A stretch of DNA of 64,000 bases, from positions 62,001 to 126,000 of the forward strand of contig JAPLKL010000006.1 of NCBI GenBank assembly GCA_026388095.1, written 5' to 3'. The position numbers and the translations under genes were made by a program. Positions 1,464 through 59,080 of this stretch are shown one piece after another (position 1 is the stretch's first letter; every line of letters starts with the position of its first letter). The notes below the pieces were generated by a model that ran no database searches, had not been told where the DNA came from, and saw nothing but the letters and a program-made list of their open reading frames with translations. This stretch comes from Elusimicrobiota bacterium (GTDB taxonomy: Bacteria > Elusimicrobiota > Elusimicrobia > UBA1565 > UBA9628).

Positions 1464-2355
1464 AGCAGCCCGCAAGCCTCTGCCGTCCTGGCTGAAGGTC
1501 TCGGTCCCCTCCGGGGAGAAGGTCGCGCGCATCCGCAAGACCTGCGCCGAGCGCGGCCTCCATACCGTATGCGCCAGCGCCCGCTGTCCGAACCTGGGCG
1601 AGTGCTGGGGCGCGGGCACCGCGACTTTCATGATCCTGGGCGGCCATTGCACGCGCGGCTGCCGCTTTTGCTCCGTGCCTTCGGCCGCGCGGCCTGAAGC
1701 GCCCAAGCCGAGCGAGCCCGAACTGCTGGCCCAGACCGTGGCCGAGCTGGGGCTGCGCTACGTGGTCTTGACCACGGTCTGCCGCGACGATCTGCCGGAC
1801 CAGGGCGCTGGGCACATCGCGGCCTGCATCCAGGCGGTCAAAGAGCGGGTGCCCGAAATCCGCGTCGAGATCCTCCTGCAGGATTTCACAGGACAGGAGG
1901 CGGCCTTGCGCAAGGTCGTCGCCTCGGTCCCGGACGTGGTCGGGCACAACATCGAGACCGTGGAGCGCCTCACGCCTTCGGTGCGCGACGGGCGCTGCTC
2001 CTATCGGCTTTCCCTGCAGACGCTCTCGGCCTTGCGCAAGCTGGCGCCCAAGACGCCCCTGAAGTCCTCGCTCATGCTGGGCCTGGGCGAGGCGGACGAG
2101 GAAATCCTGGCCGCCTTGCGCGACCTGCGCGGCGTGGACGTGGACCTGGTCACCATCGGGCAGTACCTCCGGCCCACGGGCATGGGCCGGAATCTTCCGG
2201 TGGAGCGCTATGTGGCGCCCGGAGAATTCGCGCGCTGGGCCGAGCGCGCCAAGGAGCTGGGCTTCAAGCACGCATCCTGCGGCCCGTTCGTGCGCAGTTC
2301 CTATCACGCGGCGGAGGCCTTTACGGCCAGCCTGCTCAGCGGTAGAATTAGTTAG
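1456..2355 (+). CDS. lipA: Lipoyl synthase
   Basis: 299 residues. Radical SAM enzyme that inserts two sulfurs into protein-bound octanoyl chains to make lipoyl groups. Both iron-sulfur cluster motifs are intact: the auxiliary cluster C39-x4-C44-x5-C50 (CASARCPNLGEC) and the radical SAM cluster C65-x3-C69-x2-C72 (CTRGCRFC). The C-terminal region carries RSSYHA, whose Ser is the known auxiliary-cluster ligand. The ATG overlaps the trxB stop by 8 bp. It is followed within 12 bp by lpdA and then by a LipB homologue, so the operon is devoted to lipoate cofactor use. No E2 or H-protein substrate gene is in view. Confidence 0.95.
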   Translation: MNEAARKPLPSWLKVSVPSGEKVARIRKTCAERGLHTVCASARCPNLGECWGAGTATFMILGGHCTRGCRFCSVPSAARPEAPKPSEPELLAQTVAELGLRYVVLTTVCRDDLPDQGAGHIAACIQAVKERVPEIRVEILLQDFTGQEAALRKVVASVPDVVGHNIETVERLTPSVRDGRCSYRLSLQTLSALRKLAPKTPLKSSLMLGLGEADEEILAALRDLRGVDVDLVTIGQYLRPTGMGRNLPVERYVAPGEFARWAERAKELGFKHASCGPFVRSSYHAAEAFTASLLSGRIS

Positions 2356-2366
2356 GAGACCTCTTT

Positions 2367-3773
2367 ATGGCCATGGACACGGAAGTGCTGGTGATCGGCG
2401 CGGGACCGGGCGGCTACGTGGCCGCCCTGAAGCTGGGCAAGCTGGGCAAGAAGACCCTGCTGGTGGAAAAGGACCGTCTGGGGGGAGTGTGCCTTAACTG
2501 CGGCTGCATCCCATCCAAAGCCATGATCCACATCGCGGGCCAGGTGCACAAGCTGCGCAAGGCCAAGGCCCAGGGTCTGGAAGCTCCGGACCTGCGCCTG
2601 ACCTGGTCCAAGGTGGTGGACTGGAAGGACCTGATGGGGACAGGCCTGAACCGCGGCATCGCCGCTTTGGAGAAGGGCAACGCTGTGACGGTGCTGGCCG
2701 GCACGGCGCGCCTGACCGGCGCCCATCAGGCCGAGGTGGCGACGTCGACCGGGAAGGAGACCGTGTCCTTCCAGCAGGCCATCGTGGTGACGGGCTCGCG
2801 TCCGATCTCGATACCAGGCTTCGATTTCGACGCGGACAGGATCTTGAGCTCGAGCGATGCTTTGGCATTGCGCGAGGTCCCGGGGCGGCTCTTGGTCATC
2901 GGCGGAGGCATCATCGGGCTGGAGTTGGGCACGGTGTTCGCCAAGCTGGGCTCGCAGGTTACCGTGGTGGAGTTCCTGCCCCAGGTGCTCACGGGAGTGG
3001 AGGCGGACCTGGCCGCGCCGGTGACGCGGGGCCTGCAGAGGATGGGGGTCACGGTCTGGACGAGCTCCAAAGCCAGGAGCTTCAAGACCGCGGCGGGCGG
3101 GCTGGAGGTCTCGATCGAGACTCCTGAAGGCGACAAGATGGTGGAGACGGACAAGGTCTTGGTCTGCGTGGGCCGGGCGGTCAACAGCAAAGACCTGGGC
3201 CTGGAGGCTTTGGGGATCGTCTGCGACCCGAAGGGGCACATCATCGTCAACCAGAACTATCAGACGAAGCAGCCGCACATCTACGCTGTGGGCGATGTGA
3301 TCGGTCCTCCTTACCTGGCTCACAAGGCCTCTCGCGAAGGGGTGCTCGCAGCGCTGCACATCTCGGGCAAGCCTGTAGAGCCGCGGGGCGCCATCCCGGC
3401 GGCCATCTTCACGGATCCCGAGATCGCGGCGGTGGGGGAGACAGAGACCGAAGCGCGGGCTCGCGGGGCCGAGGTGATCACCGGACGCTTCCCGTTCTCG
3501 GCTCTGGGCAAGGCCCAGGCGATGCGCGAGACCGAAGGCTTCGTGAAGATCGTGGCGGACAAGTCCTCGCACAAGGTGCTGGGCGGGGCGATCGTGGGGC
3601 CGGAGGCCGCGGATCTCATCGGCGAGTTGTGCTTGGCCGTGAAGGTGGGTGCGACCTTGGAGGACCTGGGTTCCACCGTGCATCCGCATCCGACCCTGAG
3701 CGAGGCGATCTCCGAGGCCGCCGAGGCCTGTCTGGGCCAGGCCTTGCACATCCTGACTCCGAGCCGAGTGTAG
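2367..3773 (+). CDS. lpdA: Dihydrolipoamide dehydrogenase (E3)
   Basis: 468 residues, full length. FAD/NAD flavoenzyme that reoxidises dihydrolipoamide in 2-oxoacid dehydrogenase or glycine cleavage complexes. Visible: FAD motif GAGPGGYVAA; redox disulfide C42-LNCG-C47 in GGVCLNCGCIPSK, with an unusual third Cys at 45; NAD motif GGGIIGLELG; FAD-contacting YAVGDV; and the catalytic C-terminal HPHPTLSE. TAGGAG lies about 9 nt before the ATG at 2367; a second ATG follows two codons later. It sits between lipA and the lipB-like gene, and the stop is 1 nt from the next start. Confidence 0.93.
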   Translation: MAMDTEVLVIGAGPGGYVAALKLGKLGKKTLLVEKDRLGGVCLNCGCIPSKAMIHIAGQVHKLRKAKAQGLEAPDLRLTWSKVVDWKDLMGTGLNRGIAALEKGNAVTVLAGTARLTGAHQAEVATSTGKETVSFQQAIVVTGSRPISIPGFDFDADRILSSSDALALREVPGRLLVIGGGIIGLELGTVFAKLGSQVTVVEFLPQVLTGVEADLAAPVTRGLQRMGVTVWTSSKARSFKTAAGGLEVSIETPEGDKMVETDKVLVCVGRAVNSKDLGLEALGIVCDPKGHIIVNQNYQTKQPHIYAVGDVIGPPYLAHKASREGVLAALHISGKPVEPRGAIPAAIFTDPEIAAVGETETEARARGAEVITGRFPFSALGKAQAMRETEGFVKIVADKSSHKVLGGAIVGPEAADLIGELCLAVKVGATLEDLGSTVHPHPTLSEAISEAAEACLGQALHILTPSRV

Positions 3774-3774
3774 G

Positions 3775-4368
3775 ATGCTGGTCCGTCACCTTGGGCTGAA
3801 GCCGTATTCAGAGGTGATGGGCAAGCAGTTCACATTGCTGCGGCGCCGGGCCTTGGGAGAGGCTCCTGACACCCTCCTGCTGGCCGAGCATCCGCCCCTC
3901 TACACCCGCGGCGTGGCGTGCCGGCAGAGACCCGCCCACAAGCTGCCGTATCCTCTGCGCACGGTGGACCGAGAGGGGGGGCTTTTCTACCACGGTCCGG
4001 GTCAGCTGGCGGGGTATCCGGTCTTCGACCTGCGGCAGCGTGGTCTGACTCTGGCAGCCTATCGTCGCTCGCTAGAGGGCGTGATCATGGAGGCGCTGCT
4101 GGGCCTGGGAGTGAAGGCGGTGCGCCGCAAGGGGTCTGTGGGGCTGTGGGCGCGGGGCAAGAGGCTAGTGTTCATCGGGGTGGCGGCACGGAAAGGGATC
4201 TGCTGCCATGGCTTCGCGCTCAACATCAACTGCGACCTGGCTCCGTTCCACTGCATCACGCCGCGCTCGGGGCCTGGGTGGACGTCGCTGGCCGATGTCC
4301 TGGGAAAGCCCCTGGATGAGACCTTGGTCGCCAAGGCCGTGGCTGAAGCCTTCCTACGTTACTTTTGA
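3775..4368 (+). CDS. lipB: LipB-family octanoyltransferase homologue with altered active site
   Basis: 197 residues, close to E. coli LipB (213). LipB moves octanoate from acyl-ACP to lipoyl domains through a thioester on a Cys, assisted by a Lys. The fold markers are present: EHPPLYTRG, the FYHGPGQ loop, and HGFALNINCDLAPF. At the catalytic Cys position (family N-P-C-G) this protein reads T162-P163-R164-S165-G, and at the Lys position (family G-x-K-I) it reads G128-K129-R130-L131. A Cys at 160, three residues before the Pro, is the only nearby thiol. No frameshift restores the motif. It may be a rewired transferase or a scaffold. The operon position after lipA and lpdA supports a lipoate role. 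Confidence 0.8.
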   Translation: MLVRHLGLKPYSEVMGKQFTLLRRRALGEAPDTLLLAEHPPLYTRGVACRQRPAHKLPYPLRTVDREGGLFYHGPGQLAGYPVFDLRQRGLTLAAYRRSLEGVIMEALLGLGVKAVRRKGSVGLWARGKRLVFIGVAARKGICCHGFALNINCDLAPFHCITPRSGPGWTSLADVLGKPLDETLVAKAVAEAFLRYF

Positions 4369-4374
4369 TATGAT
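4366..4374 (+). promoter_or_regulatory. Extended -10 promoter for serC-serA
   Basis: TGATATGAT is a TATGAT hexamer with a TGn extension, overlapping the stop codon of the upstream lipB-like gene. Transcription would start near 4381, leaving a ~20 nt leader containing AAGGAGG just before the serC ATG. No clear -35 is seen. Confidence 0.45.
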
Positions 4375-4400
4375 AGGCAAAAGACATTAAGGAGGATAGA

Positions 4401-5579
4401 ATGCAAAAGCCCACTTTGAAGCCCAAGTGCCCCAACTTCTCTTCCGGCCCCTGCGCCAAGCGCCCCGGCTGGACCGTCGACGCCCTCAAGAACGCTTTGG
4501 TCGGCCGCTCCCACCGCTCCAAGGAAGGCAAGGCCCGGCTCAAGGAAGTCTCCGACCGCATGAAGGCCGTCCTAGGCCTGCCCGCGGACTACCGCATCGG
4601 CGTGGTGGCCGGCTCCGATACCGGTGCCGTCGAACTCGCCCTATGGACCCTCCTGGGGCCCAGGCCCGTTGACATCTTCGGCTGGGAGTCCTTCGGCAAA
4701 GGCTGGATCACGGACGTGGTCAAGTACCTCAAGCTGCCCAACGTGCGCGAGTTCAAGGCCGACTACGGCAAGATCCCCGACCTCACCAAGGCCGACCCCA
4801 AGCACGACATCGTCTTCACATCCAACGGCACCACCTCCGGAGTCAAGGTCCCCAACCTCGACTGGATATCCAAGGACCGCGAGGGCCTGACCATCTGCGA
4901 CGCCACCTCCGGCATCTTCGCCATGGAGCTCGACTTCACCAAGCTCGACGTCGTGACCTTCTCCTGGCAGAAGGTCCTCGGCGGAGAGGCCGGCCACGGC
5001 GTCCTCATCCTCTCGCCCCGCGCCGTCAAGCGCATGGAGGAGAACGACCCCAAGGTCTCCTGGCCTCTGCCCAAGATCTTCCGCCTGGTCGCGGAAGGCA
5101 AGCTCAAGCCCGGCGAGCTGGAGTACAACACGGTCAACACCCCCTCCATGCTCTGCGTGGAGGACGCCATAGACGCCCTCAAGTGGGCCGAGTCCATCGG
5201 CGGCTGCAAGGCTCTGGTCGCCCGCTCCAACGCCAACCTCGCCGCCCTCGAGAAATGGGTGGAGAAGGCCGGCTGGATCTCCTTCCTCGCCGAGTCCAAG
5301 GCCATCCGCTCCAACACCTCCGTCTGCTTCAAGATCACGGCGGACTGGTTCACCAAGCTTCCCGACGAGGAGAAGGCCAAGGCCGCCAAGAAGATCACGG
5401 GGATGCTCGACAAGGAGGGCGTCGCCCACGACATCAACTCTTATGGGAAGGCCCCTGCTGGCATCCGCATCTGGTGCGGCGCCACCGTGGAGACCTCGGA
5501 CGTCGAAGCCCTCACCCACTGGCTGGATTGGGCTTATGAATCCGTCTCACAGGAATACGCCAAGGAGACAGTGAAATGA
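4401..5579 (+). CDS. serC: Phosphoserine aminotransferase
   Basis: 392 residues. PLP enzyme of serine synthesis converting 3-phosphohydroxypyruvate and glutamate to O-phosphoserine. It begins with the family signature [13 protein letters not shown] and continues with [13 protein letters not shown], the form common in alphaproteobacterial and archaeal SerC rather than the E. coli form. The PLP-binding Lys is K191 in [17 protein letters not shown] lies about 6 nt before the ATG. The stop TGA overlaps the ATG of serA, so the two consecutive serine-pathway enzymes are translationally coupled. Promoter element at 4366-4374. Confidence 0.93.
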
Positions 5580-6568: not shown

Positions 6569-6592
6569 GATCTTCCCAAAGAGGTGAAGGCC

Positions 6593-7927
6593 ATGGCCAT
6601 GTTCTTCGATGACATCGGGCTGCAGGTGCCGACCGTGCTTCTTCCCGCGCCCGCGGTGGACCTCAAGAAATGGGCGGTGGTGGCCTGCGACCAGTACACC
6701 TCGGAACCCGCGTATTGGGAGCGGGTCCGCAAGTTCGCGGGGTCAGCCCCCTCCACGCTCAACATCATCCTGCCGGAGATAGGCCTGGACTCTCCGCGCT
6801 TGGCACGAATGATCACGAGCATCAACAAGACCATGCGCGCTTACGTGGCCGAGGGGGTCTTGCGGGAGCAGCGGCCGGGGCTCGTGCTCGTGGACCGAAA
6901 GACCGTCCATGCCAAGTCCCGCAAAGGGATGATCGTGGCGCTGGACCTGGAGAGGTACGACTTCAGGAAGGGCTCTCAGACCCTCATCCGCGCCACCGAA
7001 GGGACGATCCTCGAGCGCATCCCTCCCCGCGTGAAGATCCGCAAGAACGCCTCGCTGGAGCTTCCCCATATCATGGTCCTCATCGACGACCCGGAGAGGA
7101 CCGTGATCGAGCCCCTTTGCAAGAAACGGCCGGCCAAGCTCTACGACACGGACCTCATGCAGGGGTCGGGGCATATCTCAGGCTATCTCATAGACGACGC
7201 GGTGGCGATCGAGCGCGTGCACAAGAGCCTGGCCAGGCTCGCGGAGCGCGGCCGGTTCGCGAAGAAGTACGGTGCCCGGGGCAAGGGCGTCCTCCTCTAT
7301 GCCATGGGCGACGGGAACCACAGTCTCGCCACGGCCAAGACCATCTGGGAGACCCTGAAGTCCCAGGCCAAGGACAAGAAGGTCATCATGCGCCACCCGG
7401 CGCGCTTCGCGCTCGTCGAGCTCGTCAACGTCCATGACGACGGGCTCGAGTTCGAGCCGATCCACCGCGTGGTCTTCAACACGGACACGGCCGCGCTGCT
7501 CAAGGCGATGGGGTCCTTCTTCGGACCGCGCTTCTCCGTGCGCACCGTAAAGGGCCGGAAGAACGCCATCCGGGTGTCCCGGAGCTGCGCTGGTCCCTGC
7601 CACTGCATCCCGTTCTCGACCGGCAAGACCTTCGGCATCATCAGCATACGCCGGCCGAAGCTGACCCTGGAAGTCGCCACCCTGCAGTCCTTCCTGGACC
7701 AATACCTGGCATCGGACAAGCGGGCCAAGATAGACTACATCCACGGCGACGAAGTCGTCGAGTCGCTCTCGGCCAAGCCCGGCGCCATCGGCTTCTATCT
7801 GCCGCCGATGGACAAGAGCGACCTCTTCAAGACCGTCATCCTCGACGGCGCTCTGCCGCGCAAGACGTTCTCCATGGGAGAGGCCAGCGAAAAGCGGTTC
7901 TACCTGGAGTGCCGGAAGATCGCCTGA
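6593..7927 (+). CDS. DUF1015 family protein
   Basis: 444 residues. Recognised as the DUF1015 family by PAPAVDLKKWAVVACDQYTSEPAYW near the N-terminus, YDFRKGSQTLIRATEGTI, and MGDGNHSLATAKTIWE. Family members are often encoded beside serA/serC in Firmicutes and Fusobacteria, and here too the gene follows serCA. The biochemical function is not established; a role linked to serine or phosphoserine is an inference from neighbourhood only. I prefer ATG 6593 (AGAGGTG 6-7 nt upstream) over the in-frame GTG at 6584, which overlaps that ribosome site. The stop is 7 nt before the next gene. Confidence 0.85.
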   Translation: MAMFFDDIGLQVPTVLLPAPAVDLKKWAVVACDQYTSEPAYWERVRKFAGSAPSTLNIILPEIGLDSPRLARMITSINKTMRAYVAEGVLREQRPGLVLVDRKTVHAKSRKGMIVALDLERYDFRKGSQTLIRATEGTILERIPPRVKIRKNASLELPHIMVLIDDPERTVIEPLCKKRPAKLYDTDLMQGSGHISGYLIDDAVAIERVHKSLARLAERGRFAKKYGARGKGVLLYAMGDGNHSLATAKTIWETLKSQAKDKKVIMRHPARFALVELVNVHDDGLEFEPIHRVVFNTDTAALLKAMGSFFGPRFSVRTVKGRKNAIRVSRSCAGPCHCIPFSTGKTFGIISIRRPKLTLEVATLQSFLDQYLASDKRAKIDYIHGDEVVESLSAKPGAIGFYLPPMDKSDLFKTVILDGALPRKTFSMGEASEKRFYLECRKIA

Positions 7928-7934
7928 GCCCCGG

Positions 7935-9674
7935 ATGAAGTCTCTCAAGCGCCTTCTCCCCTATCTCCACGAGCACCGGGTCAGGTTCCTGCAGGTCTGC
8001 CTGGTCATGGTGGCCGTGGCGGCCCTCAGCGGCGCCACGGTCTACATCCTCAAGCCCGGCATCAACTCCATCTTCGAGCGCAAGGACCCCAATCTCCTCG
8101 TGGCCGTGGTACTGGCCATACCCGCCATCTTCTTCCTCAAGCTCATCCTCGTCTACGCCCAGACCTATCTCATCAACTACATCGGCCAGCGCATCGCCCA
8201 GCGCCTGCGCGAGGAACTCTTCGCCCATCTCCACACCCTCTCCCTGGACTTCTTCTGGAGGTCCAAGAGCGGCGAGCTCCTCTCGCGCCTGACCAACGAC
8301 CTCAACAACCTCCAGCAAGGCCTCCAATTCGTGCCCCTGTTCCTGGTGCGCGACACGCTCACCGTCCTCATCCTGCTCGTGGTCATGTTCGTCATCAACT
8401 GGCAGTTCGCGCTCATCGCCATACTCGCCATCCCCATGGCGGGCGGGGTCCTGGCCGTGCTGGGCAAGAAGCTGCGCTCCTCCAGCATGAAGGGTCAGGA
8501 AGTCATGGGCGAGATCTACCACCGCTTCCAGGAGAGCCTGCAGGGCATGCTCGTGGTCAAGGCCTTCAACTACGAGGCCGAGGCCACGGCCAAGTTCAAG
8601 GCCGAGAGCAGCGCTTTCTTCAGCCAGATGATGCGCTATTTCAGGGCCACCGCCCTCTCCGGCCCGCTCATGGAGTTCCTGGGAAGCATCATCATGGCCG
8701 CCATCGTGCTCAAGGCCGGCACCGAGATATTCCATGGGCACATGACTCCCGGAGACTTCTTCACCTTCCTGGGCGCCTTCTTCATGGCCTACGCTCCCAT
8801 CAAGAACCTCTCCCAGACCAACGCCCAGGTCCAGCTGGCCCTGGCCGGGGCGGACCGCATCTTCGAAATCCTGGACGAGAAGCCCAGCGTCAAGGAGCGC
8901 CCCGACGCCTTGCCGTTCTCCGGCCTGCGCGAGAGCGTGGTGTTCGAGGACGTCTCCTATCGCTATCCCGGCCGCGAGAACTGGGCCTTGCGCCACATCG
9001 ACCTCACCATCAAGGCCGGCGAGGTCGTGGCCTTCGCCGGCCCCAGCGGCTCGGGCAAGACCACCTTGGTGCATCTGCTCCTGCGGCTCTTCGACCCGCT
9101 GGAGGGCCGCATCCTCATCGACGGCAAAGATCTGCGCGACTACTCATCCAACGCTCTGCGCGCCCATCTGGGCTTGGTCACGCAGGACACCATCCTCTTC
9201 AACGACACGCTGGGCGCCAACGTGGGAGTGGGCCGACACGGGGCGTCTCTGGAAGACATCCGTTCCGCTCTCCAGGTCGCCGATGCCACGGAGTTCGTCT
9301 CCCACATGCCCGCGGGCCTCGACACTCCCCTGGGCGACCGCGGCCTGCGCCTCTCCGGAGGCCAGCGCCAGCGCATCGCCATCGCGCGGGCCGTGCTCAA
9401 GAACCCGTCCTTGCTCCTGCTCGACGAAGCCACCTCCAACCTCGACACCGGCAGCGAGCGCAGCGTCCAGGAGGCTCTGGAACGCCTCTATCCCGGCAGG
9501 ACCGTGCTCATCATCGCCCACCGGCTGACCACGTTGCAGAACGCCCACCGCATCGTGGTCCTGCACCACGGCGAGGTCGCGGAGGCCGGGCCCCATGCCG
9601 AGCTCCTGGCCCAAGGCGGCATCTACGCCACCCTATACCGCTACCAACAGCTCGAGCCCGTCGACGTCCAGTGA
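7935..9674 (+). CDS. msbA: MsbA-like lipid flippase, ABC transporter (membrane + ATPase fusion)
   Basis: 579 residues, typical of a half-size ABC exporter. The N-terminal ~310 residues form a six-helix membrane domain with INYIGQRIAQRLREELFAHL and the FDFFWRSKSGELLSRLTND-like coupling region. The C-terminal ATPase has Walker A GPSGSGKTT, Q-loop VTQDTILF, signature LSGGQRQR, Walker B LLLLDEATSNLD and H-loop IAHRLTT. MsbA dimers flip lipid A-core across the inner membrane. A GT9 gene overlaps its stop, which supports a lipopolysaccharide role over drug export. No Shine-Dalgarno is seen; it is probably cotranscribed with the upstream gene. Confidence 0.85.
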   Translation: MKSLKRLLPYLHEHRVRFLQVCLVMVAVAALSGATVYILKPGINSIFERKDPNLLVAVVLAIPAIFFLKLILVYAQTYLINYIGQRIAQRLREELFAHLHTLSLDFFWRSKSGELLSRLTNDLNNLQQGLQFVPLFLVRDTLTVLILLVVMFVINWQFALIAILAIPMAGGVLAVLGKKLRSSSMKGQEVMGEIYHRFQESLQGMLVVKAFNYEAEATAKFKAESSAFFSQMMRYFRATALSGPLMEFLGSIIMAAIVLKAGTEIFHGHMTPGDFFTFLGAFFMAYAPIKNLSQTNAQVQLALAGADRIFEILDEKPSVKERPDALPFSGLRESVVFEDVSYRYPGRENWALRHIDLTIKAGEVVAFAGPSGSGKTTLVHLLLRLFDPLEGRILIDGKDLRDYSSNALRAHLGLVTQDTILFNDTLGANVGVGRHGASLEDIRSALQVADATEFVSHMPAGLDTPLGDRGLRLSGGQRQRIAIARAVLKNPSLLLLDEATSNLDTGSERSVQEALERLYPGRTVLIIAHRLTTLQNAHRIVVLHHGEVAEAGPHAELLAQGGIYATLYRYQQLEPVDVQ

Positions 9675-56396: not shown

Positions 56397-57671
56397 ATGA
56401 TCGGCCTGATCCGGTGCGCTGACAAGCGATTCCGAAGCATCATCATCTCGCTGCTACTGGGGATGCTGGTCTCCGCCAGCCCAAGCCTCGCCGCTGACCT
56501 GGCTCTGGTCGGAGGGAAGATCTACCCGTCGCCCACCGAGCCGCCGATCGACGACGGCACCATCCTCGTGCATGACGAGCGCATCTATGCTGTCGGCCCC
56601 AGCTCCAAGGTCAAGCCGCCCCGGGGCGCCACGGTACTCGCCTGCAAAGGGACGGTCGTCACCGCGGGATTCTGGAACAGCCACGTGCATTTCCTCACCA
56701 AAGGACTGCTGAACGCAGAGAGACTCCCAGCCGATCGACTCTCCGCGCAACTGGAGCAGATGCTCACCCACTGGGGTTTCACGACTGTCTTCGACGTCGC
56801 CTCTGTCCTCGACAACACCAACGCCATCCGGCGGCGCATAGCCAGCGGCGAAGTGCGCGGCCCGCGCATATTCACCGTCGGCGATCCCTTCTATCCCAAA
56901 GGCGGGACTCCCCATTATGTGCAGGAGCTGCTTGCGGCCAACCACATCCCGTCGGAGGAGGTGCAGTCCGCGACGCAGGCCGTGGCGCGCGTGCGCCGGC
57001 AGATCGACGCCGGGGCCGACGGCGTAAAGATCTTCACCGGCTCGCTGGCGGGGAGCGGGAGAATCCTGCCCATGCCGATGAGGATAGTCAAAGCCATAGT
57101 CACGCAGGCCCACCACGCCGGAAAGCCCGCTTTCGCGCATCCCTCCAATATCCAGGGCATCGAGATAGCCTTGCGAAACGGCGTCGACGTTCTGGCTCAT
57201 ACCGCCCCTTTGAGCCAGCACTGGCCTCCGGACCTGATCAATCGCATGAAGGCCAAGCGCATGGCGCTGATCCCGACTCTGACCCTGTGGGAAGTGGAAG
57301 GCAGGGAACGCGGCCAATCCCCCGAGGATATCCGGACGGCACTCGACCTGGCCATCGAGCAACTGAAGGACTATTCCGAGGCTGGCGGACAGATCCTCTT
57401 CGGCACCGACGTGGGCTATACCCATCATCCCAATACCGCCAAGGAGTTCGCGCTGATGTCGCGCGCGGGCTTGAGCTTCCAGCAGGTGCTCGCTTCGCTG
57501 ACCACGAACCCCGCCCAGCGTTTCAGATGCTCGCGTCAAAGCGGACGGATAGCCAAGGGGATGCAGGCAGATCTGGTGGTACTGAAGGGTGATCCCGCCA
57601 AGGCTTTTGCCGCATTCTCAAGAGTCCGGTACACCATCCGCAACGGCAAGGTGATCTACGCCGCGCAATAG
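56397..57671 (+). CDS. Exported amidohydrolase (imidazolonepropionase-like)
   Basis: 424 residues. Metal-dependent hydrolase with a signal peptide (FRSIIISLLLGMLVSASPSLAA). Visible: VTAGFWNSHVHFLTKG (HxH metal ligands), the Lys in DGVKIFTGSLAG, the His in PAFAHPSNIQG and VLAHTAPLSQHW, and the Asp in ILFGTDVGYTHH. The closing ADLVVLKGDP and GKVIYA are standard. Members act on Xaa-Pro dipeptides, imidazolone compounds or other cyclic amides; the substrate is unknown. ATG 56397 has GGGAGG 6 nt upstream. It lies alone, divergent from ispG. Confidence 0.87.
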   Translation: MIGLIRCADKRFRSIIISLLLGMLVSASPSLAADLALVGGKIYPSPTEPPIDDGTILVHDERIYAVGPSSKVKPPRGATVLACKGTVVTAGFWNSHVHFLTKGLLNAERLPADRLSAQLEQMLTHWGFTTVFDVASVLDNTNAIRRRIASGEVRGPRIFTVGDPFYPKGGTPHYVQELLAANHIPSEEVQSATQAVARVRRQIDAGADGVKIFTGSLAGSGRILPMPMRIVKAIVTQAHHAGKPAFAHPSNIQGIEIALRNGVDVLAHTAPLSQHWPPDLINRMKAKRMALIPTLTLWEVEGRERGQSPEDIRTALDLAIEQLKDYSEAGGQILFGTDVGYTHHPNTAKEFALMSRAGLSFQQVLASLTTNPAQRFRCSRQSGRIAKGMQADLVVLKGDPAKAFAAFSRVRYTIRNGKVIYAAQ

Positions 57672-57703
57672 GCCTTGACACCTCCGGCGACGGCGACCTT
57701 TCG

Positions 57704-57712
57704 TGGTATAAT
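57704..57712 (+). promoter_or_regulatory. Extended -10 promoter of the repeat-protein gene cluster
   Basis: TGGTATAAT with a perfect TATAAT at 57707-57712, followed by a ~20 nt leader with TTAGGAGG before the ATG at 57738. A TTGACA at 57675 is 26 bp away, too far to pair with it. Confidence 0.5.
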
Positions 57713-57737
57713 TAAGGACACTTAGGAGGAACCGCTG

Positions 57738-58370
57738 ATGATGCTCCCCGCCCTCTGCCTCTTGGCCTCTCTCGCCAACGCCCAAAGCCTCGAAACCCTC
57801 TCCGCAGGCACGGCCGCCGGCTTCGCAAACCCCGCAGTCCAGGCCTTCAAGTTCGTCCCGGCCGCGACTGTCGCCGCCAAGGCAACGTCCCTGCCCCGCG
57901 TCGGCACGATCAAAGGCGGCATGAACCTCTCGCCCGTTGACGTCACCTTCGACCGCCGCGCCGGCCGCATCACCGGCGGCATGAACCTCAGCCCCCTCGA
58001 CGTCACCGTGGACTATGACGGCGGCAAGATCACCGGCGGGGCCAACCTCAGCCCCGTAGAGCTCACCTTCACCTGGAGCCCCGAGAAAGCGTCCGTCGAA
58101 GGCGGAGCCAACCACAGCCCGGTCAAGTACGAGGTCGAATGGTCCAAAGGCGTTCTGGAAGGTTACTCCAACCACTCCCCCGTGCGCGTCGAGTTCGACA
58201 TGGAGAAAGGCACCCTCACGGGCTACGCCAACCATTCTCCCATCGAGCTGAATTTCGACAAGGTCTCCGGACGCCTCAGCGGAGGCATGAACCATTCCCC
58301 GGTCGACATCACCTTGGTCAACCTCGACCTCTACGACTTCCTGACCTACTTCTTCCTGTTCCTGAAGTGA
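57738..58370 (+). CDS. Secreted protein of seven GG-x-N-[LH]-SP repeats, family not recognised
   Basis: 210 residues. Signal peptide (MMLPALCLLASLANA), ~45-residue linker, then seven repeats starting at nucleotides 57915, 57975, 58035, 58101, 58161, 58221 and 58281: six units of 20 residues and one of 22. Each reads [GS/E]-G-[GY]-x-[N]-[LH]-S-P-[VLI]-x-[VLFY]-x-[FVL], then a charged turn and a hydrophobic residue. Repeats 1-3 use NLSP, 4-7 use NHSP. A regular 20-residue pitch with alternating hydrophobics suggests a beta-solenoid or stacked beta-hairpins. A hydrophobic C-terminus (DLYDFLTYFFLFLK) could be a membrane anchor. SD AGGAGG. GTGA overlap with the next gene. Confidence 0.8.
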   Translation: MMLPALCLLASLANAQSLETLSAGTAAGFANPAVQAFKFVPAATVAAKATSLPRVGTIKGGMNLSPVDVTFDRRAGRITGGMNLSPLDVTVDYDGGKITGGANLSPVELTFTWSPEKASVEGGANHSPVKYEVEWSKGVLEGYSNHSPVRVEFDMEKGTLTGYANHSPIELNFDKVSGRLSGGMNHSPVDITLVNLDLYDFLTYFFLFLK

Positions 58371-59080
58371 CAGCCGACATCGTCCGACGCGCAGCCGGAC
58401 TCCTGGCCATAGGCGCATTGGCCATGAGCTTCGGCGCCTGCGAGGAGTCCGGTTGCGGCGAGCCGCCCAAGCCGGAGAAAAGCTCGACCAGCGTCAGCGG
58501 CGCCAGCGGCGCATCCTCAGGCGGCGGCGGCGGCGGAGCCGTCGCCGTGGGAGAAAGAGCCCAGCAGGTCATCAACGGGCCCCTGCGCAAGGAGAAGGAT
58601 TCGGCGATCCCCCGGGCGCAAACGGCCCGCCCAGAAGCCAATACCGCCGTGTCCACCGCCGCGGTCTTCTCCGTGGTGAACAAAGCCGCTTACGAGCGCA
58701 CCGTGGTCAAGGCCCCGGGGAAAGTGCTCGTGGTCAGCTACACTCCCACCTGCAAAGGCTGGAAAGACGTGCAGGCCGCGCTGCAGGGCCTCTCCGAGGA
58801 CCTGGCCGGCAAGGTGGCCGTCTATCGCCTCGACGTCTCCGACCCGGACCAGGCCACGGTCCTGCCTTCGGGCATGACCCGCCTGCCCGTGCCGGGTTTC
58901 GCCTATTACGAGAGCGGCGTGTCCTTGAGCCAGCGCCAGGGACTCCCCTTCGATCGCCGGATCGGGAAGGGGGGAGAACCCATCGAGGACGCCCAGCAGT
59001 ACCAGGACCGCCTGCGGCGCTGGCTGCGCGAGGCCGTGGCCGCCAAGAGCTTCAGCCTGCCCGCGCCCAAGAGCCTGTGA
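58367..59080 (+). CDS. Thioredoxin-like lipoprotein with a single active-site Cys
   Basis: 237 residues. Signal with Cys near residue 26 (IGALAMSFGACEES), then a Ser/Gly-rich linker (SSTSVSGASGASSGGGGGG), then a C-terminal thioredoxin-like fold: APGKVLVVSYTPTCKGWKDVQAAL, VAVYRLDVSDPDQA, LPVPGFAYYESG. Thioredoxins have WCGPC; here the motif is TPTCKGW, with one Cys only and no Trp before it, so disulfide reduction by the usual mechanism is unlikely. GTG start overlaps the repeat-protein stop, so the two exported proteins are coupled. Confidence 0.65.
   Translation: MTADIVRRAAGLLAIGALAMSFGACEESGCGEPPKPEKSSTSVSGASGASSGGGGGGAVAVGERAQQVINGPLRKEKDSAIPRAQTARPEANTAVSTAAVFSVVNKAAYERTVVKAPGKVLVVSYTPTCKGWKDVQAALQGLSEDLAGKVAVYRLDVSDPDQATVLPSGMTRLPVPGFAYYESGVSLSQRQGLPFDRRIGKGGEPIEDAQQYQDRLRRWLREAVAAKSFSLPAPKSL

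Follow-up and report, generated by a model that had tools for sequence, protein, structure and literature searches.

What does an exported bacterial protein gain from a 20-residue unit that recurs seven times at almost constant spacing, and what fold does such a unit build? The question is posed by a 210-codon gene within the 64,000-nucleotide stretch of Elusimicrobiota DNA analysed here (the window). A preliminary description made from the sequence had proposed a secreted protein with a new repeat, possibly a beta-solenoid. We conclude that the gene very probably belongs to a lineage-specific exported family in which a fixed set of seven beta-hairpins makes up the folded part. At about even odds (a probability near 0.5), we read the product as a curved-sheet envelope protein that binds or scaffolds without being an enzyme, its apolar concave face filled by its own aromatic helix. 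The coordinates of the features on which these readings draw are collected in Table 1.

Table 1. Features of the repeat gene and its downstream neighbour, in positions of the window
Feature	Position	Strand	Basis
Extended -10 promoter element GTGGTATAAT	57703..57712	+	Sequence; comparable elements ahead of many family members
Ribosome-binding site AGGAGG	57724..57729	+	Sequence
Seven-hairpin protein gene, 210 aa	57738..58370	+	Sequence, relatives, profile search, dN/dS
Putative signal peptide, residues 1-15, cleavage LANA/Q	57738..57782	+	Judged by eye
Low-complexity variable linker, residues 16-54, predicted disordered	57783..57899	+	pLDDT under 50; poor conservation
Unit 1 GGMNLSPVDVTFDRRAGRIT	57915..57974	+	Sequence, AlphaFold2, covariation, self-similarity
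Unit 2 GGMNLSPLDVTVDYDGGKIT	57975..58034	+	Sequence, AlphaFold2, covariation, self-similarity
Unit 3 GGANLSPVELTFTWSPEKASVE, 22 aa with longer loop	58035..58100	+	Sequence, AlphaFold2, covariation, self-similarity
Unit 4 GGANHSPVKYEVEWSKGVLE	58101..58160	+	Sequence, AlphaFold2, covariation, self-similarity
Unit 5 GYSNHSPVRVEFDMEKGTLT	58161..58220	+	Sequence, AlphaFold2, covariation, self-similarity
Unit 6 GYANHSPIELNFDKVSGRLS	58221..58280	+	Sequence, AlphaFold2, covariation, self-similarity
Unit 7, last hairpin GGMNHSPVDITLVN	58281..58322	+	Sequence, AlphaFold2, covariation, self-similarity
C-terminal aromatic helix LYDFLTYFFLF	58329..58361	+	Predicted helix; alignment conservation
Thioredoxin-like lipoprotein gene, GTG start overlapping the repeat-gene stop by four bases	58367..59080	+	Pfam Thioredoxin E 3.3e-4, below cut-off

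The regularity of the array is beyond dispute. Successive units start 60, 60, 66, 60, 60 and 60 nt apart, as first reported, and the BLOSUM62 self-score of the protein at lag 20 reaches 248, compared with a best value of 9 among 5000 composition-preserving shuffles scored at all lags from 10 to 44. The turn motif reads NLSP in the first three units and NHSP in the last four, and the two sub-types proposed on this basis are real in the window protein. However, across the family the variable position of NxSP is occupied by H, L, G, R or N, and the split is therefore a property of this protein rather than of the family. The GG-x-N start originally ascribed to every unit holds except in units 5 and 6, which open with GY (GYSNHSP and GYANHSP). 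Similarly, the N-x-S-P turn had been called invariant, but N4, S6 and P7 of the unit are merely frequent among relatives, and Gly at position 1 is the sole residue invariant across all seven units. The DNA of the units is only 48-76% identical (mean 60%), and thus the duplications that produced the array must be old.

We take the plus strand to be the coding strand because relatives share its reading frame, because dN/dS lies between 0.21 and 0.66 in the pairs compared (lower in the repeat domain than in the whole gene), and because a ribosome-binding site 8 nt ahead of the ATG and an extended -10 element precede the gene. A consensus scan gave no full sigma-70 site, and no RNA element was found. 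An antisense ORF of 266 aa (57618-58418, minus strand) overlies the gene and probably exists only as a high-GC shadow of the gene itself. A signal peptide, MMLPALCLLASLANA followed by Q, is plausible as judged by eye and agrees with the proposal that the protein is exported.

The C-terminal end (LYDFLTYFFLFLK) had been thought to suggest a surface location. Its hydrophobic stretch is real, but it spans only about 12 residues and is predicted to be a packed helix, and a surface and a periplasmic location cannot be told apart. A transmembrane anchor was rejected, given that such a run is too short. This aromatic helix is the most conserved part outside the repeats in the family alignment. The idea that it serves as a general sorting tag was also rejected, because a profile built on the C-terminal 34 residues matches clearly in this family only; weaker matches fall in other ORFs (mostly of 414-450 aa), with partial coverage of the model.

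How the units fold is best approached through the AlphaFold2 model of the window protein, which was built with 35 sequences and has a pLDDT of 84 in the block 51-60, about 91-97 beyond it, and 93-97 for the larger part of the stretch 55-210 that holds the repeats. The model predicts 14 strands of 6-9 residues, with lengths of 8 and 6 in alternation, then a short helix at residues 198-208. Two-residue N-x turns alternate with longer loops, mostly of four residues, and the strands are predicted to form tandem hairpins in a single continuous antiparallel sheet. A second model, of a 317-aa relative, has the same order of strands and helix at lower confidence. The coil-length repeat suggestive of a solenoid is certainly present (a period of 20, with one 22-residue unit), but in place of stacked coils with about 20 residues per turn, which would have supported the solenoid, the model has hairpins.

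Evidence independent of the model points in the same direction. Covariation in the two predicted antiparallel registers has a mean Z of 0.77 +/- 0.20 and 0.52 +/- 0.17, versus 0.25 for positions that would be stacked in a solenoid, and the top covarying pairs, K117-E134 and R179-T192, lie exactly in hairpin register. Shifted registers mostly score near 0, but hairpin B at a shift of -2 scores 0.56, and this half of the test is weaker because the slid register does as well. Between strand 1 and strand 14 the covariation signal is absent. Across the N-x turn, the charges at the paired positions 20 and 9 are opposite in 122 cells and like in 4, where cells are counts of related sequences and not independent events. 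In units 4 and 5 both members of the pair are exchanged, with Glu opposite Lys or Arg where the other units have Lys or Thr opposite Asp or Glu, and only 27 of the 5040 permutations of unit order do as well as the observed one. If the units were stacked in register, most contacts between charges would be of like sign (129 versus 53 cells at position 9, 74 versus 5 at position 13 and 45 versus 7 at position 11). Judged from the aligned sequences, charge pairing and covariation fit antiparallel hairpins rather than parallel solenoid coils, and all three measures speak against the solenoid. The alternating hydrophobic residues noted at the outset are borne out by a strict alternation of face hydropathy: one side of the sheet is wholly apolar (unit positions 3, 8, 10, 12 and 19, with the invariant Gly 1) and the other is polar.

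The preliminary description knew of no named repeat family with this signature, and the searches bear this out. For the window protein there was no significant match in Pfam, NCBIfam or PHROGs, and a search of PDB sequences returned only chance-level or designed proteins. An NCBIfam match to the E492 microcin in five members (best E 2.6e-4) was set aside as a low-complexity, Gly-rich match. Pfam scans gave no DUF4097 or bactofilin match, with E limits of 5 for the window protein and 1 for the other members scanned. The PCC_BT domain consists of hairpins around a helix. One divergent member (L021) scores 34.4 bits against its model (PF18140), above the Pfam gathering cut-off of 23.5, and another scores 23.3; the window protein has no match, and the remaining members with listed scores are below the cut-off. 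PCC_BT differs in being a domain of an enzyme subunit, and its match leaves some of the repeat array uncovered. Tentatively, we take these scores to reflect a shared hairpin pattern rather than membership.

Relatives of the gene occur in 20 of 57 related genomes (the window's own included, where the gene is single copy), and a profile search extends the family to 47 of the 295 genomes of the phylum, all in the window's class. The named matches to the profile belong to Elusimicrobia or Elusimicrobiales, and the family has so far been found only in Elusimicrobia. Its distribution is patchy even within the window's genus, where three of the seven genomes searched, own included, carry the gene; some of the others are incomplete. 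A viral, phage or plasmid origin was rejected, since no relatives of the protein were found in the viral contigs, phages and plasmids searched. One small literature search aimed at the family found no description of it. The proposal of a new repeat family is supported, and with it a little-studied phylum gains a previously undescribed hairpin-repeat family.

What could such a sheet do? Each unit very probably consists of a strand from position 6 to 13, a four-residue loop, a second strand from position 18 to position 3 of the next unit, and the N-x turn at positions 4 and 5, so that the 14 strands follow one another in an unbroken antiparallel meander. Only apolar residues line one face, and the other is polar, with charges matched across strands. 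A face that is only apolar means that the sheet must curve or fold to cover it, and the conserved C-terminal helix (LYDFLxYFFLF) would be a natural plug. A closed barrel, a half-pipe and a flat sheet could not be told apart. No catalytic set is conserved in the family alignment, where the invariant features are Gly, Pro and Asn turns and the aromatic helix. Because the conserved residues are structural, a non-enzymatic binding or scaffold protein is the simplest account. In taking this further we infer closure of the sheet, location, ligand and partner. Tentatively, and with somewhat less than even confidence, we suggest that a periplasmic or cell-surface protein binds a partner or a hydrophobic ligand through its concave face or exposed hairpin ends, with the helix acting as lid or plug.

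The structural comparisons give this reading some support. In VIA-align, where Z-scores under 8 are common by chance and every row obtained here is below 8, LolA-type proteins align over the whole domain at a Z of about 5.0-5.5 (6.3 over 122 residues when the second model is used), and the YD shell of a teneurin reaches 5.7. The unclosed barrels of LolA, LolB, LppX and LprG have 11 strands, and share with the predicted fold export, a curved antiparallel sheet, an apolar interior and a helix inside. However, the likeness is weak and within the chance range (Z about 5-6.3), LolA-type proteins are non-repetitive with a different helix order, and LolA has no sequence match. Also counted in favour of an envelope protein is the OMP-like gene found downstream at about 25 loci in Elusimicrobiales. 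Against it stand the absence of a confident match to any solved fold (Foldseek against the PDB gave a best E of 0.036, with unrelated propellers and FABPs as top rows) and the point that a helix lodged in the groove would leave little room for a ligand.

Gene neighbourhoods provide further context. The thioredoxin-like lipoprotein gene adjoins the repeat gene in two other loci (L051 and L054) and lies elsewhere in two genomes (G016 and G022); the pair is an operon at genus level only. Across lineages the neighbours include this lipoprotein, the OMP-like protein, a DUF2089-like gene and a pseudouridine synthase-like gene, and since they differ between lineages they do not point to any one partner. 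Most Elusimicrobiales members (L055-L088) have roughly 100 additional residues at the N-terminus, a domain with a predicted ferredoxin-like order of beta-alpha-beta-beta-alpha-beta in the model of the 317-aa relative. Here the OMP-like gene is followed by a GAF-histidine kinase gene, and at about 22 loci a gene for a clostripain-family (C11) protease lies divergently upstream. At L055, for example, the protease (3947-5425, minus strand) precedes the hairpin protein (6589-7443, plus strand), the OMP-like gene (7452-9020, plus strand) and the kinase gene. At L077 and L085, a DUF2089-like zinc-ribbon gene, identified by eye, replaces the OMP-like gene. This conserved neighbourhood supplies concrete candidate partners. 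Furthermore, the window's genome encodes the N-domain as a free, signal-bearing protein of 155 aa (L112:5925-6392, plus strand, contig C79), which has no match in Pfam or PDB sequences. Because the domain occurs either fused or free, as in fusion or fission, there is a hint in the sequences that it acts together with the hairpin domain. In Elusimicrobiales, the hairpin domain might thus work with the ferredoxin-like domain and probably also with the outer-membrane-type protein of the adjacent gene.

A bolder version of the envelope-protein reading, which we consider rather unlikely, would make the fold itself new: seven equal hairpins would enclose one conserved aromatic helix in a soluble barrel or clam of 14 strands. 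Such an envelope protein would have arisen within Elusimicrobia and would be linked, by way of the ferredoxin-like domain in its fused or free form, with a secreted protease and with an outer-membrane protein.

The strongest competing explanation, doubtful though still a genuine contender, is a static structural protein of the surface or envelope with an open sheet like that of OspA or MORN proteins, which would hold partners or cover the cell without a ligand pocket. The single-layer sheet of OspA is the best VIA-align row for the window model (Z 6.5, within the chance range noted above, over 73 residues), and shares an antiparallel meander of short strands. Only half of the window domain aligns, however, and OspA has another organisation and lacks a repeat signature. 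A MORN repeat protein heads the Foldseek search of a viral library (E 2.8e-3, probability 0.90); no MORN structures are among the VIA-align rows, which excludes nothing. MORN repeats are 23-residue hairpins with YEGEW and GxG motifs, and the groove of MORN sheets binds partner proteins (PMC7725318). MORN proteins (PF02493/PF07661) resemble the predicted fold in their tandem hairpins of about 20 residues, conserved glycines and grooved antiparallel sheet, which is continuous and curved. Yet the 23-residue length, aromatic stacking and six-residue connecting loops are missing from the window family, MORN models are absent from the Pfam matches, and neither motif occurs in any unit. Low TM-scores, high rmsd values and an apolar face that would need covering also weigh against an open sheet. 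The family is akin to a hairpin-repeat sheet (MORN, OspA) or to an unclosed barrel (LolA), but it cannot be assigned to one or the other.

The C11 protease suggests another explanation, which we regard as improbable: that the hairpin protein is a regulatory partner or substrate of the adjacent secreted enzyme, with the fused N-domain as an I9-type propeptide. The divergent position of the protease gene, the strand order of the N-domain and its existence as a free secreted protein are all consistent with this proposal, and the prodomains of PCSK9 and subtilisin are among the best VIA-align rows for the N-domain. However, these rows (Z 6.9-5.9, with 6.9 for the PCSK9 prodomain) are tied with other ferredoxin-like folds, and Pfam I9 does not match the N-domain. 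I9 domains regulate subtilisins, not C11 enzymes. The N-domain is missing from several members, no C11 gene adjoins the window gene, and one of the C11 genes of the window's genome (L125:2295-3673, minus strand, contig C79) spans two reading frames, being either frameshifted or misassembled. Among possible roles, we would place a carrier of hydrophobic ligands ahead of a scaffold for partner proteins, and the latter ahead of a protease partner, without strong separation.

Two further alternatives fare worse. An integral outer-membrane barrel of 14 strands would suit the even strand number, the single apolar face and the short turns, but it is very unlikely because membrane barrels have longer strands than the 6-9 residues seen here, there is no aromatic girdle, Pfam scans gave no OMP match, and strand 14 ends at residue 194 with the helix after it, leaving no C-terminal beta-signal. 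Least probable of all is a curli-like or DUF4097-like beta-solenoid, in which each unit would form one coil of an in-register stack that might polymerise on the cell surface: the exact period, the Asn-containing, G-rich GGxN turn and the strand-turn-strand outline recall curlin repeats, and apolar and polar positions alternate, but the two-residue turns, the charge pairs and the covariation all favour antiparallel hairpins over stacked coils, no solenoid or curlin model is among the Pfam matches of the members scanned, and unit number lacks the variation typical of open-ended arrays.

The constancy of unit number, which the preliminary description had proposed to compare among relatives, tells us something about the history of the array. 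Seven units are present in the relatives recovered by the profile search, as in the window protein, and almost every full-length relative keeps them. Identity averages 0.55 between equivalent units of different species, 0.42 between different units of the same protein and 0.37 between different units of different proteins. Equivalent units are thus most alike across species, and the array must have been fixed before the family diverged, without free expansion or contraction.

Some copies depart from this plan. One (L094, 2212-2595, reverse strand) consists of one hairpin and the C-terminal helix only, and another (L092, about 2331-2456, reverse strand) has collapsed to the same two elements; the latter resembles a pseudogene, in that a stop separates its N-domain from the hairpin. 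Because copy number is nearly fixed, unlike in most arrays, and one-hairpin remnants exist in two genomes, the family could show how a repeat array turns into a single domain. The short, uniform, turn-defined unit is also attractive for work on folding and design. A paralogue (L091:2569-3246, plus strand) is built from 18-residue units (GTANGHEVDLRVYSNGVS) in which both turns are short. Finally, two giant exported proteins of 2641 and 2666 aa (L089:3335-11257 and L090:3356-11353, both plus strand) were rejected as family members, their match being weak (E 2e-4) and their repeat different. They carry repeats such as LTLADFIPEAA...VTGTVNGKAVTV, and their C-terminal ends appear ricin-like by eye.
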